Under the pieces are notes generated by a model. That model did no database searches and was not told where the DNA came from. It saw only the letters and a program-made list of their open reading frames with translations. From Roseateles hydrophilus (lineage in GTDB: Bacteria; Pseudomonadota; Gammaproteobacteria; Burkholderiales; Burkholderiaceae_C), in assembly GCF_026712245.1 (NCBI RefSeq), contig NZ_JAPPUY010000001.1:372001-436000 (forward strand): DNA of 64,000 nucleotides. The letters are read 5' to 3'. Below are positions 19,284 to 23,052 of the stretch, piece after piece. Both the position numbers and the translations under genes were made by a program. The stretch's first letter is position 1. Each line of letters starts with the position of its first letter.

Positions 19284-19715
19284 CTAGCGCGTCGCAGCCT
19301 GCCGCACCTTGTCCAGGTAGGCGTGGCCGTCCGGGGGCAGGCCGCTGCGCTGCGAGGCCCAGATCATCTCGCCCAGTGCGTCCATCGCCACGTGGTGCGC
19401 CTCATGGCGCGAGTTGCGCTTGGCGCTCAGCAGGTCGATGGCCTGGCGGATGCCGGAGGGCTGGTCGATGGCGTGCTGCTCCGTGATGGTCAGGTGCATG
19501 GACAGGTGCAGGAAGGGGTTGGTACGGCCTTCCTCCACCGTGTAGACCTTCTCCAGCGCGGCGGCTTCGTCCGCGAGCTCGTCGTGGTACTCGGGGTGCT
19601 CGGCGATCCAGTCGGCCGCCAGCGCTTCCATCGGGATCAGCGGCAGGCTATCGCGCCACTTGCGGTAGGTGGCGCAGAAGAATCGGCGGACTTCGAGCTG
19701 GGACGGGGCAAACAT
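19284..19715 (-). CDS. DUF1841 family protein
   Basis: A 143-residue protein of the DUF1841 family found mainly in beta- and gammaproteobacteria. Typical features are the start MFAPSQLEVRRFFCATYRKW, the phrase NPFLHLSMHLTITEQHAIDQ and the His-rich RHEAHHVAMDALGEMIW. Several conserved His and Glu residues could bind metal, but function is unknown. It is the last gene of the kefF-kefC-sir2 row, 21 bases after the sirtuin stop, and ends at the shared terminator. Confidence 0.85.
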   Translation of the reverse strand: MFAPSQLEVRRFFCATYRKWRDSLPLIPMEALAADWIAEHPEYHDELADEAAALEKVYTVEEGRTNPFLHLSMHLTITEQHAIDQPSGIRQAIDLLSAKRNSRHEAHHVAMDALGEMIWASQRSGLPPDGHAYLDKVRQAATR

Positions 19716-19736
19716 GCAGCGATTGTCGCCGCCGCC

Positions 19737-20564
19737 TCAATCCAGCCGCCGCGCCAGGGCTTGCAGGGCCTGCAGTGCGCCGCCGGCCAGGCCCACGCCA
19801 AAGGCCGGCGCCACTGCCGGCTCGCGCAGGTTGATGCGCACGATCTGCCCGCCATGCGCGGCGACCAGCAACTGGCTGAAGTGCCGCACCGACGGCACTG
19901 CCGTGCCGGCGCCGATCTCGACGATGACCGGGCGGTTCACGCGACCCAGCCAGTCCGACAGCCGCCGGGCCTGGGCCTCGTGCCGGTCCGGCAGCCAGCC
20001 GTCGTCGCCGAACATCAGCACGTTGGGTCGCGCCAGTGCGCCGCAGCCGGGGCAGGTGGGCAGGTCGCCGCGCCAGCGGCAGGCGTCTTCGTCGATGTCG
20101 GGCGCCAGCGCGTCCGCCGGCCAGGGCGACTGGCCGCAGCCATGCAGGCACTGCAGCCAGTGCAGCGAGCCGTGGCATTCGTGCAGCAGCTGGTCGCTGA
20201 AGCCGGCGCGCTGGAACTGGCCGTCGACATTGCTGGTGAACACGGCGCCGCCAAGCAGCGTCTGCGCGGCCCAGCGCTGCAGCAGCCCGAAGCCGGCGTG
20301 CGGCACCGTGCGCCGGTACAGCGCCAGGCGGTGCCCGTAGAAGCCCCAGGCCAGGTGCGGGTCGCGCATGAAGCTGCGCGGCGAGGCCATGCTCATGAAG
20401 TCCAGCCCCGCGCGGCCCAGCGCGGGGTAGGCTCGCCAGAAGCCCTCGTTGCCGCGGAAGTCCGGCAAGCCGGAGTCCACACCCATGCCGGCGCCGGCGG
20501 CCACGACGAGGGCGTCGGCCTGCGCGATCAGGTCAGCGGCGTGGTCCAGGTCGGCGTCGTTCAT
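19737..20564 (-). CDS. SIR2-family NAD-dependent deacylase-like protein (sirtuin variant)
   Basis: A 275-residue SIR2-fold protein. Seen: GAGMGVDSGLPDFRG (25-39, normally GAGxSxxSGIPDFRG), TSNVDGQF in place of TQNIDxLH, ECHGSL carrying the catalytic His, a CxxxC...CPGC zinc motif and RPNVLMFGD, the FGE-type loop. NAD binding and the catalytic His look intact, but the first motif lacks the usual Ser and the TQN motif is altered, so substrate or activity may differ from classic CobB-like deacetylases. The start ATG overlaps the kefC-like stop (ATGA), tying it to the potassium-efflux genes. Use of NAD or an NAD-derived ligand is inferred from the family. Confidence 0.85.
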   Translation of the reverse strand: MNDADLDHAADLIAQADALVVAAGAGMGVDSGLPDFRGNEGFWRAYPALGRAGLDFMSMASPRSFMRDPHLAWGFYGHRLALYRRTVPHAGFGLLQRWAAQTLLGGAVFTSNVDGQFQRAGFSDQLLHECHGSLHWLQCLHGCGQSPWPADALAPDIDEDACRWRGDLPTCPGCGALARPNVLMFGDDGWLPDRHEAQARRLSDWLGRVNRPVIVEIGAGTAVPSVRHFSQLLVAAHGGQIVRINLREPAVAPAFGVGLAGGALQALQALARRLD

Positions 20565-22402
20565 GGGGGCGTGCCGGCGTCCCAGCCGCCGCGCTGCGCC
20601 TGGCGGTGGGCTTCGTCGGCCTCGCGTTCGGCGGCCATCTGCTGCTCGAACTGCTGGCGGCCCAGCTTGGCGGCAGCGATCAGCGCGTTCTCGTCTCCCT
20701 GCAGCGGCAGCATGCGGTGCAGCACCTCGATGTTGTGGCGGCGAAAGCGCATCGCCTGGCGCCGTGCGGCGTGTGGCTCCATGCCCGTCAGCTCCAGCAC
20801 GCTGCGGGCGCTCATCAGTGCGGCATCGAAGGTCTCGCGCTCGATGTGGCCCACGCCAGCGGCCTGCAGCTGGTGGTAGTGCTGCACATTGCGGGCGCGC
20901 GCCACCACGGTCAGTTGCGGGAAATGCTCGCGCGCCAGCTCGGCGATGGCGACGCTCTGGGCGATGTCGTCGATGGCGATGACGAGGATGCGCGCGCTCG
21001 CCGCACCCGCCGTGCGCAGCATGTCCAGGCGCGTCGCGTCACCGTAGTACACCGTCCAGCCGAAGCGGCGCAGGCTCTCGATGGCCTCGGAGTCGTGGTC
21101 CAGTACCGTGGCCTCCAGGCCGCTGGCGCGCAACATGCGGGCCACGACCTGACCGTAGCGGCCACTGCCGGCAATGATGATGGGCGAGGGCGGTGGTGGC
21201 GTTTCGGCGCGGGCGCCTTTCAGGCCGCGGCGCGCGAGCTTCTGGGACATCAGCCGGTCGCCGCCCGTCAGCAGCAGCGGCGTCAACGCCAGCGACAGCG
21301 CCACGGCCGCCACCAGCGCGGAGTTCTGGGCCGCGTCGATCATGCCTTCGCCGCGCGCGAGCTGGAACACGACGAAGCCGAACTCCCCGCCCTGGGCCAG
21401 CAGGATGACGAAGGCCGGGCGCTCCACCAGCGGGATCTTCATGGCCTTGGCCATCAGCGCGAGCACGACGATCTTGCAGGCCAGCAGGGCGGCCACCAGC
21501 GCCGCGACGACGCCCGGCTGGGCCGCGACGGCCTTCAGGTCCAGCCCCATGCCGACGGCGATGAAGAACAGGCCCAGCAGCAGGCCCTTGAAGGGCTCCA
21601 GGTCGGTCTCCAGCTCGCGGCGGTATTCGCTTTCTGCCAGCAGCACGCCGGCCAGGAAGGCGCCCAGCGCCATCGACAGCCCGACCGCCAGCATCAGCGC
21701 GGCCGTGCCCATGACCAGCAGCAGCGCGGCGGCCGTGAAGATCTCGGGCGTCTTGCTGTGCGCGATCCAGCGCAGCGCCGGGCGCAGCAACAGCCGGCCG
21801 CCGAAGATGATGACGACGATGGCGCCCACAGCCTTGGCGGCGGCGAGCCAGGTCTGACCGTCGCCATCGTCCGCAGCGCCGCCCACGGCCAGGATGGGCA
21901 CCAGCGCCAGCACGGGAATCGCAGCAATGTCCTGCAGCAGCGCGACGGACAGGATGCTCTCGCCCGCCGTCGTGCGGCCCAGGTTGCGCTCGGCCAGCAC
22001 CGCCAGCGCCACGGCCGTGGACGACATGGCCAGCCCCAGGCTGACCACCACGGTCAGTCGCCACGGGTAACCCAGCGCCAGGCCCACGGCGGTCAGCGCT
22101 GCCGCGCAGCCCAGCAGCTGTACGCTGCCCCAGCCAAAGATGGGCCGCCGCATGGCCCACAGCCGCTTGGGTTCCAGCTCCAGACCGACGAGGAACAGCA
22201 TCAGCACCACGCCCAGTTCGGCTACTTCGGGGATGGCGCTGGCGTTGGGCACCAGGCCCAGCACCTGCGGGCCGATCAGCAGGCCCGCGACCAAGTAGCC
22301 CAGGATGGACCCGAGCCGTAGCCAGCGCGCCAGCGGCACGGCCAGAACGGCGGCGGCCAGAAAGACCAGCGGCAGTTGCAGCCAGGCGCCGTGGTGGTTC
22401 AT
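20561..22402 (-). CDS. kefC: CPA2-family potassium/proton antiporter with RCK domain (KefB/KefC type)
   Basis: An inner-membrane cation/proton antiporter of 613 residues. Residues 1-385 are hydrophobic with about 12-13 helices, including GYLVAGLLIGPQVLGL, ELGVVLMLFLVGLELEP, the exchanger core SVALLQDIAAIPVLAL (Gln-Asp at 157-158) and ILLAQGGEFGFVVFQL. A Rossmann RCK_N domain follows at about 405-530, starting IIIAGSGRYGQVV (G412-G417) with the acidic DHD that binds nucleotide. The start at 22402 overlaps kefF (ATGA). In KefC systems glutathione adducts open K+ efflux to acidify the cell against electrophiles. KefB and KefC cannot be separated safely; the kefF neighbour favours KefC. Confidence 0.88.
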   Translation of the reverse strand: MNHHGAWLQLPLVFLAAAVLAVPLARWLRLGSILGYLVAGLLIGPQVLGLVPNASAIPEVAELGVVLMLFLVGLELEPKRLWAMRRPIFGWGSVQLLGCAAALTAVGLALGYPWRLTVVVSLGLAMSSTAVALAVLAERNLGRTTAGESILSVALLQDIAAIPVLALVPILAVGGAADDGDGQTWLAAAKAVGAIVVIIFGGRLLLRPALRWIAHSKTPEIFTAAALLLVMGTAALMLAVGLSMALGAFLAGVLLAESEYRRELETDLEPFKGLLLGLFFIAVGMGLDLKAVAAQPGVVAALVAALLACKIVVLALMAKAMKIPLVERPAFVILLAQGGEFGFVVFQLARGEGMIDAAQNSALVAAVALSLALTPLLLTGGDRLMSQKLARRGLKGARAETPPPPSPIIIAGSGRYGQVVARMLRASGLEATVLDHDSEAIESLRRFGWTVYYGDATRLDMLRTAGAASARILVIAIDDIAQSVAIAELAREHFPQLTVVARARNVQHYHQLQAAGVGHIERETFDAALMSARSVLELTGMEPHAARRQAMRFRRHNIEVLHRMLPLQGDENALIAAAKLGRQQFEQQMAAEREADEAHRQAQRGGWDAGTPP

Positions 22403-23052
22403 GCCGTGCCTCCGTCCAGGGATGAGAACAGCGGCGGGCGTTCGTCCAGTGCAACGGCCTCCTCGTCGCCCGCGCCCGGATCGGTCACGCGCTCGCACCA
22501 GTCCGGGAATCGCTGCAGCCGCTGCACGAACAGGTCGGCATGGGCCTGGACCTGCGCCGGCGTCGCACGGTGCGCGGCATGCAGGACCTGCGGGGGCAGC
22601 CAGGTCATGCCGCAGGTGTGGACCGACTGGCGATAGGGCAGCAGGAAGTCTTCGATGGGGTGATGGTTGTGGCCGCCGGGCGCGTAGGCTTCGGCGCCGC
22701 CGCCGGTGGAGGTCACCAGCCAGAAGTCCTTGCCGTGCAGCGCGGTGCCGCCAGGGCCATAGGCCCAGCCCAGGCGCGGCACCTCGTCCAGCCATAGCTT
22801 CTGCAGCGCCGGCATGCTGTACCAGTAGATCGGGTGCAGCATCACCACCAGCCGCGCGGCCTGCAGGGACTGCTGCTCGGCGGGGACGTCGATGTGGAAG
22901 TCCGGGTAGAGGCGGTAGAGGTCGCGCAGCTCGACGCGGTCAGCCGCGGGCGACGCGCGCAGCGCCTGCAGCAGCGTGCGCGTGACGTGGGAGCGCGCCA
23001 GGTCGGGGTGGGCGGCGAGGACGAGGATGTCGCGTAAGGGTCGGTCGGCCAT
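22399..23052 (-). CDS. kefF: KefF-like NAD(P)H:quinone oxidoreductase, ancillary to the Kef antiporter
   Basis: A 217-residue flavodoxin-fold oxidoreductase. Typical residues are ILVLAAHPDLARSHVTRTLL near the N-terminus, the LHPIYWYSMPALQKLWLDEV block for flavin binding, and WLVTSTGGGAEAYAPGGHN. In E. coli, KefF binds KefC and is required for full efflux activity while reducing quinones. The four-base overlap with the antiporter gene supports the same pairing. It is the first gene of the operon; the short spacer to the divergent MaoC gene (45 bases) must hold the promoter. Confidence 0.88.
   Translation of the reverse strand: MADRPLRDILVLAAHPDLARSHVTRTLLQALRASPAADRVELRDLYRLYPDFHIDVPAEQQSLQAARLVVMLHPIYWYSMPALQKLWLDEVPRLGWAYGPGGTALHGKDFWLVTSTGGGAEAYAPGGHNHHPIEDFLLPYRQSVHTCGMTWLPPQVLHAAHRATPAQVQAHADLFVQRLQRFPDWCERVTDPGAGDEEAVALDERPPLFSSLDGGTA

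Follow-up and report, generated by a model that had tools for sequence, protein, structure and literature searches.

Introduction

Sirtuins have been divided into the groups SIR2, SIR2_2, and SirTM (PMC12700824). The ADP-ribosylating SirTMs, or class M sirtuins, carry Gln in place of the catalytic His and are genetically linked to a macrodomain, and restoration of the His residue (Q137H) abolishes ADP-ribosylation by the Streptococcus pyogenes enzyme SpySirTM (PMC4518038). Here we describe a sirtuin gene, sir2, in a 64,000-nucleotide stretch of Roseateles hydrophilus DNA (hereafter, the window), in which sir2 overlaps kefC of the glutathione-gated K+ efflux system KefF-KefC and is followed by a gene for a DUF1841 protein. 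We consider it likely that sir2 is an optional passenger in the Kef operon and that it encodes an active protein-lysine deacylase dependent on nicotinamide adenine dinucleotide (NAD+) and belonging to a distinct, widely transferred subfamily.

Motifs and conservation of the sirtuin subfamily

The canonical motifs of class I to IV sirtuins are GAG[IV]S, TQN[IV]D.LH, and a GTS loop; we observed them in Sir2Af1 and, in part, in Hst2. An earlier note on this DNA had pointed to two deviating motifs in the R. hydrophilus protein, GAGMGVDSG and TSNVDGQF. Both are present and mark a true variant, in which GAGTAVPSVR additionally substitutes for the GTS loop, FGD for FGE, and CxxxC for CxxC. Conservation was determined for 120 distinct sequences, from the window and from the loci of relatives, with two degraded copies included. 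The GAG motif and G28 were found in 120/120 sequences, R37 in 118/120, and both S111 (at the Gln position of TQN) and F117 in 119/120. The catalytic residues N112 and D114 were likewise invariant (120/120 each), H131 was present in 119/120, and GAG at positions 218 to 220 in 120/120; the Cys residues of the zinc site (139, 143, 171, and 174) were conserved in 120, 118, 120, and 120 of the 120 sequences, respectively. The protein thus has the attributes of a sirtuin, namely a SIR2 domain scoring over the cut-off, a Rossmann NAD motif, catalytic Asn, Asp, and His, and a Cys4 zinc site, and at G28, S111, F117, and GAG218–220 it departs from the motifs of classes I to IV. A Y-x-x-R motif was also retained (Y76 in 120/120 and R79 in 118/120), with WGFYGHR of the R. 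hydrophilus protein aligned with WYAWR of Sir2Af1.

The best sirtuin model in NCBIfam yielded 133.9 bits, below its cut-off of 243, and the highest family score in the libraries tried was that of PHROG 2162, a phage Sir2 family (Table 1). The "deviant" motifs are traits of a large, unnamed sirtuin subfamily of bacteria and phages, whose members occur across Proteobacteria, in some Actinomycetota, and in several lineages of phages. The subfamily is common and apparently uncharacterized, and there was no close solved structure among the structure matches found. A few copies are degraded: that at locus L143 has an incomplete NAD motif and an Arg residue where the catalytic His should be (the sole exception at H131), that at L144 has an altered NAD motif, and G326:C89 is a fragment with an internal stop.

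Relation to class M and class III sirtuins

With a full-length profile, Sir2Af1 scored 94.5 bits, SIRT5 up to 91.6 bits, and the class M structures 8rsn (fungal Mfs1) and 5a3a (S. pyogenes SirTM) 89.5 and 75.7 bits, respectively. With a profile for the COOH-terminal half, both class M structures came first (48.6 and 47.8 bits), the best of the others being Hst2 at 41.8 bits. Alignment of the AlphaFold2 (AF2) model with VIA-align gave 8rsn_B as the best match (Z score of 26.2, root-mean-square deviation of 2.9 over 250 aligned residues), followed by 5a3a (25.3, 3.2, and 267, respectively), the Sir2 homolog–NAD complex 1ici_B (Z of 23.7), and SIRT5 (23.4). Foldseek, ranked by E-value, placed zebrafish SIRT5 first and 5a3a second. 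An unrooted tree with long branches, constructed from a half-length (COOH-terminal) alignment of 59 sequences in which the two class M sequences are partial, separated 21 canonical sirtuins (Hst2, Sir2Af1, and 19 sirtuins of Burkholderiales) from the subfamily, phage, and class M sequences with an ultrafast bootstrap value of 100; within that tree, class M was weakly joined (79) to a group of phage sirtuins. The COOH-terminal half, the tree, and the structure comparison together suggest that the subfamily is nearest to class M.

The subfamily and class M have in common a GxGxxxP NAD-pyrophosphate loop, CxxxC, and the F residue of [ST]N.D..F. The resemblance in the loop is partial: comparison of GVGx[NT]TP in class M with GAGTAIP, which occupies the corresponding alignment position in the subfamily, reveals that both Gly residues and the Pro residue (104/120) are common, whereas V, [NT], and T are not. 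The subfamily differs from class M in that it retains HG, with H131 in 119/120 sequences, where class M has QG, as well as in the absence of a linked macrodomain. The macrodomain PF01661 was not found in the R. hydrophilus genome. Of 58 subfamily genomes, 56 were searched, and 17 of these had it; it was linked to the sirtuin in none of them, the nearest being ~26 kilobases (kb) away (G306).

With the class III proteins SIRT5, CobB, and Sir2Af1, the subfamily shares the SIR2 fold, the catalytic His, the Cys4 zinc site, and Y-x-x-R, and their full-length profile scores are slightly better than those of class M. It differs from them in having TSN for TQN, GAGMG for GAGVS, and GAGTAIP for the GTS loop. 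Sir2Af1, the one named class III reference in the half-length alignment, also lies across the fully supported split. We further considered SirAAB of acetic-acid bacteria, going by the published description of these proteins as SIR2 and SIR2_2 (PMC11820453), and set it aside.

Predicted activity

The sirtuin is most likely an NAD-dependent lysine deacylase. This prediction follows from the presence of the catalytic His in the subfamily, whereas a His residue at this position in class M abolishes ADP-ribosylation. NAD+ would be bound in the Rossmann cleft (GAG...DFRG, N112, and D114), H131 would activate the ribose, and the acyl-lysine would occupy the groove flanked by the MFGD and IN segments. 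Y-x-x-R (Y102 and R105 in SIRT5) is the motif for negatively charged acyl groups in SIRT5 and CobB, and by analogy it hints at a preference of the sirtuin for acidic acyl groups. We infer both the catalytic activity and the substrate.

The earlier note had taken the motif deviations as a hint of a changed substrate, of NAD hydrolysis, or of ADP-ribosylation. The kinship with class M in the COOH-terminal tree and by VIA-align speaks in part for the hint of ADP-ribosylation, but with the catalytic His kept, deacylation is the better guess. That the enzyme is an ADP-ribosyltransferase which, like SirTM, modifies a target protein is unlikely, even though the closest structures by VIA-align are those of class M, the loop, CxxxC, and F residue are common to the two, and class M lies on the subfamily's side of the split. 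The HG motif stands against it, given the loss of SpySirTM activity in Q137H (PMC4518038), as does the macrodomain record, in which no gene was found in the R. hydrophilus genome and none in the other subfamily genomes searched lies closer than ~26 kb to the sirtuin gene; the partners GcvH-L and LplA2 were not searched for.

We tentatively suggest, as a possibility somewhat short of even, that the subfamily represents the histidine-bearing stock from which the class M enzymes arose. In the order we propose, the NAD-pyrophosphate loop and the zinc knuckle would have changed first, followed by replacement of His with Gln and a shift from deacylation to ADP-ribosylation. If so, the subfamily would stand, as a living intermediate, midway from the sirtuins that act as deacylases to those that act as ADP-ribosyltransferases. 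It is of moderate interest owing to its position next to class M: situated between that class and ordinary deacylases, it could show how such a switch of chemistry may have happened.

Distribution of sir2 in the kef operon of Roseateles

Both kefF and kefC of the window encode proteins that exceed the NCBIfam equivalog cut-offs, as expected for members of the KefF-KefC system, from which the locus differs by the extra gene overlapping kefC. Among 20 Roseateles genomes, kefC was detected in all 20, the DUF1841 gene in 19, and a SIR2 gene in seven; the remaining 13 have kefC and no SIR2 match. The sirtuin gene lies directly after kefC in 6/20 genomes (G000, the R. hydrophilus genome that contains the window, together with G448, G451, G452, G455, and G459). 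The seventh sirtuin (G454) is encoded on another contig, shows 54% identity, and belongs to a different clade from the kef-linked six. The backbone common to the genus is kefF-kefC-slot-DUF1841, with kefF adjoining kefC in the window and in 19 other Roseateles loci read. The slot is empty in 11 genomes (gap of 17 to 163 nucleotides) and is occupied by a HipA-type gene in G445 and by an unrelated gene of 381 amino acids in G457; it was not readable in G460, in which DUF1841 was not found. Given that different genomes have an empty slot, the sirtuin, or other inserts, the stretch separating kefC from DUF1841 is a variable spot. Even in genomes with the sirtuin the arrangement downstream differs, with DUF1841 on a separate contig in G448, with genes for an extracytoplasmic function (ECF) sigma factor and a kinase, plus two others, intervening in G459, and with kinase-like, unmatched, and adenylosuccinate-synthetase-like genes intervening in G452.

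The start of sir2 overlaps the stop of kefC by 4 bases in five of the six paired genomes and by 11 bases in the sixth. Purifying selection acts on all six copies, with ratios of nonsynonymous to synonymous substitution rates (dN/dS) of 0.16 to 0.63 in 15 pairwise comparisons. Given the overlap in all six genomes together with this selection, the overlap is more than chance and the arrangement is real and old in the lineage; it is nevertheless dispensable. All six sirtuins linked to kef fall into a single clade (support of 0.975), whose sister is a sirtuin from another genus (0.935). Parsimony analysis of the slot on a tree of kefC, kefF, and DUF1841, several nodes of which are weak, required six changes (Fitch) or one gain and six losses. 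In G384 (L099), whose slot is empty, 21 bases across the kefC stop match the sirtuin start of G448 at 19/21 positions, compared with 13 to 15 positions for the other five sirtuin starts; this stretch, though short, looks like a deletion scar.

The kefF-kefC operon of the genus would thus have picked up a sirtuin gene between kefC and DUF1841, probably once. Because sir2 overlaps kefC, its translation is probably coupled to that of kefC. The gene would have been readily lost, being a passenger rather than a conserved component of Kef.

As a separate observation, the whole stretch from kefC through DUF1841 to flgN is variable in the genus, containing sirtuin, HipA-type, ECF sigma factor and kinase, PepSY and TonB-receptor, or TetR genes. 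The variable gap is that between kefC and DUF1841 in L087, L091, L103, and L105, and that between DUF1841 and flgN in L088, L093, and L095.

Neighborhoods of the sirtuin gene outside Roseateles

The subfamily was found in 10 of 149 other genomes sampled from the order and in 41 of 298 sampled from the family. Of these 51 loci, 39 were checked with flanks of ~1.5 kb, some shortened by contig ends (the loci of G386 and G326, two of the 51, are in neither this set nor the next), and tblastn detected kefC, kefF, or DUF1841 beside the sirtuin gene in 0/39. A set of 120 larger loci, which overlaps the first, comprised 40 from sampled genomes and, from named contigs, the 80 best among at least 581 stretches; in 117/120 of these loci, each flank was 1 kb or longer. 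Here too, tblastn showed none of the three genes near the sirtuin gene in the 119 loci from outside the genus. The sole larger locus with both kefC and kefF (L147) is that of Roseateles saccharophilus. Open reading frame (ORF) calling missed the sirtuin in 5/40 loci of other genera and in 22/120 larger loci, and because ORF callers are imperfect in this way, the kef-neighbor counts rest on tblastn and not on clustering. An Na+/H+ antiporter gene ~0.9 kb from the sirtuin gene at L129 was examined as a possible Kef link and was judged incidental, being distant in sequence (26% identity, E value of 6e-6).

The earlier note had proposed a functional link by which redox or NAD state is connected to K+ efflux, and had named a neighborhood survey as a check. 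With orthologs usually not next to kef genes in that survey, and never so in the loci examined outside the genus, the proposal did not hold up, and as far as comparative evidence goes the Kef link appears to be incidental. The inference that overlapping genes have one function is tempting, but it is poorly supported here and is removed by the clear presence/absence record. A role for the sirtuin in Kef is, on these sequence comparisons, unlikely. Specifically, the sirtuin might sense or spend NAD+ when electrophiles activate KefC-KefF, or might deacylate KefC or KefF. Such a tie would fit the gene overlap in all six genomes, the purifying selection, and the single clade of kef-linked sirtuins, which makes the association old in the genus; we nonetheless regard it as quite improbable in view of the 13 Roseateles genomes that have kefC without any SIR2 match, the outside loci without kefF, kefC, or DUF1841 beside the sirtuin gene, and the other genes that hold the slot in G445 and G457. 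A search of the open-access literature, by titles and the opening lines of abstracts, found no report of a Kef-sirtuin link or of the motif set of the subfamily. We infer the lack of a functional link, as well as co-expression of sir2 with kefC.

Several observations weigh against the reading of sir2 as a passenger gene for a deacylase of this subfamily. The overlap kept in all six kef-linked genomes and the purifying selection allow that co-expression with Kef could be of local benefit. A total of six losses at a single slot is high, and the gene may instead have been gained repeatedly by recombination within the genus. Deacylation could be impaired by the Ser that replaces Gln in TQN and by the Gly that replaces Ser in GAGxS. 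With regard to placement, the full-length profiles favor Sir2Af1 and SIRT5 over class M, Foldseek ranks zebrafish SIRT5 first, and the COOH-terminal tree covers half of the protein, includes two partial class M sequences, and has no root.

Outside the kef operon, the sirtuin gene behaves as one for a mobile, stand-alone enzyme. Plasmid copies were present in 6 of 72,556 plasmid records, and the five that were read have unrelated neighbors. Clustering of neighbors was examined for a conserved partner gene and showed clade-level synteny only, with genes for a UvrA-type protein and a response regulator in one group and for valyl-tRNA synthetase and a nucleotidyltransferase in another. A putative molybdenum-carrier gene on a Caballeronia plasmid was also considered as a partner and set aside, given that it recurs in just two of the loci searched.

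Two features of these loci are recorded here as side observations. At L181, L194, L197, and L200 (Caballeronia, Paraburkholderia, and Burkholderia), a second sirtuin-like ORF is located within four called genes of the first. The actinobacterial copies at L202 (Prauserella) and L209 (Pseudonocardia) are 57 to 62% identical to the window protein and group (0.994) with copies from metagenome-assembled genomes labeled Acidobacteria, delta proteobacterium, and Myxococcota; this grouping points either to long-range transfer or to contigs that were mis-binned.

Phage copies

Vibrio phages are already known to carry sirtuins alongside NAD and nucleotide genes (PMC5107563), and jumbo phages to carry SIR2 domains (PMC7824862). 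We found sirtuin relatives on 20 contigs of IMG/VR and weak matches in four records of named phages. Most of the IMG/VR copies read carry the motifs GAG[MI]G[VI]DSG, TSN[VI]D, and E.GAG, a trait shared with the R. hydrophilus protein, whose gene differs in being chromosomal and located among ordinary bacterial genes; the motifs of L233 and L235 were not readable in the frames used. In L244, L248, and L249, the sirtuin is immediately preceded by one or more genes that match ribonucleotide reductase PHROGs, and the gene lengths and gene order of L248 recur in L247, L250, and L251. The large gene beside the viral sirtuin in L245 encodes a terminase, not a reductase. Subfamily sirtuins also occur in other viral contigs of up to 322 kb (L236 to L240, L242, L243, and L246), where the few neighbors scanned had no named PHROG.

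A comparison of KefF, KefC, the sirtuin, and the DUF1841 protein with the PADLOC-DB defense models yielded no match up to an E value of 0.1, which agrees with the remark of the earlier note that no defense partner is seen here; a defense island was set aside on this result. That the sirtuin is an NADase in phage defense or a phage-derived factor for host takeover is very improbable, for although viral contigs contain members of the subfamily, some of them adjacent to genes for ribonucleotide reductase, and the distribution is patchy and plasmid-borne, there is no PADLOC match, no sensor or partner gene was seen at the locus, and the protein is a stand-alone enzyme of 275 amino acids with its deacylase residues intact.

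Gene layout of the locus and the DUF1841 promoter-like element

The features of the locus are listed in Table 1. The coordinates bear out the gene order given in the earlier note, with overlaps of 4 bases between kefF and kefC (whose ATG is at 22400–22402) and between kefC and sir2, and a gap of 21 bases between sir2 and DUF1841. The gene sir2 is the only SIR2-family match in the whole R. hydrophilus genome.

Table 1 Features of the kef-sir2 locus, with positions in the window.
Feature	Position	Strand	Description
kefF	22399..23052	(-)	217 amino acids; oxidoreductase-type ancillary protein of KefC; NCBIfam KefF equivalog, 252.5 bits (cut-off 210)
kefC	20561..22402	(-)	613 amino acids; K+/H+ antiporter with RCK (TrkA_N) domain; NCBIfam KefC equivalog, 802.7 bits (cut-off 752)
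sir2	19737..20564	(-)	275 amino acids; Pfam SIR2, 66.7 bits (cut-off 24); PHROG 2162, 143.2 bits; predicted local distance difference test (pLDDT) of AF2 model, 95.8
Codon for catalytic histidine H131 (ECHGS)	20172..20174	(-)	Aligned with HG/QG motif of solved sirtuins
GACAAT, -10-like hexamer	19722..19727	(-)	-12 to -7 relative to DUF1841 ATG; predicted leaderless promoter
DUF1841 gene	19284..19715	(-)	143 amino acids; Pfam DUF1841, 178.3 bits (cut-off 24); neighbor, probably separately promoted

The DUF1841 gene, described in the earlier note as following at 21 bases, carries a promoter-like element of its own, so that this spacing from sir2 says little about common function. GACAAT is located 11 to 13 bases before the DUF1841 ATG in 18/18 copies examined (of 19 genomes), whatever lies upstream. 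The natural reading of this arrangement, seen at the DUF1841 starts in L087 to L105 as well as in the window, is that of a predicted leaderless class of -10 promoter, in which a -10 element at -12 to -7 would direct a transcription start at the ATG and hence a leaderless DUF1841 message. The pattern GACAATN6ATG occurs three times in the window compared with an expected 0.19, and GCGACAATN6ATG occurs 11 times genome-wide compared with 0 for a reversed control.

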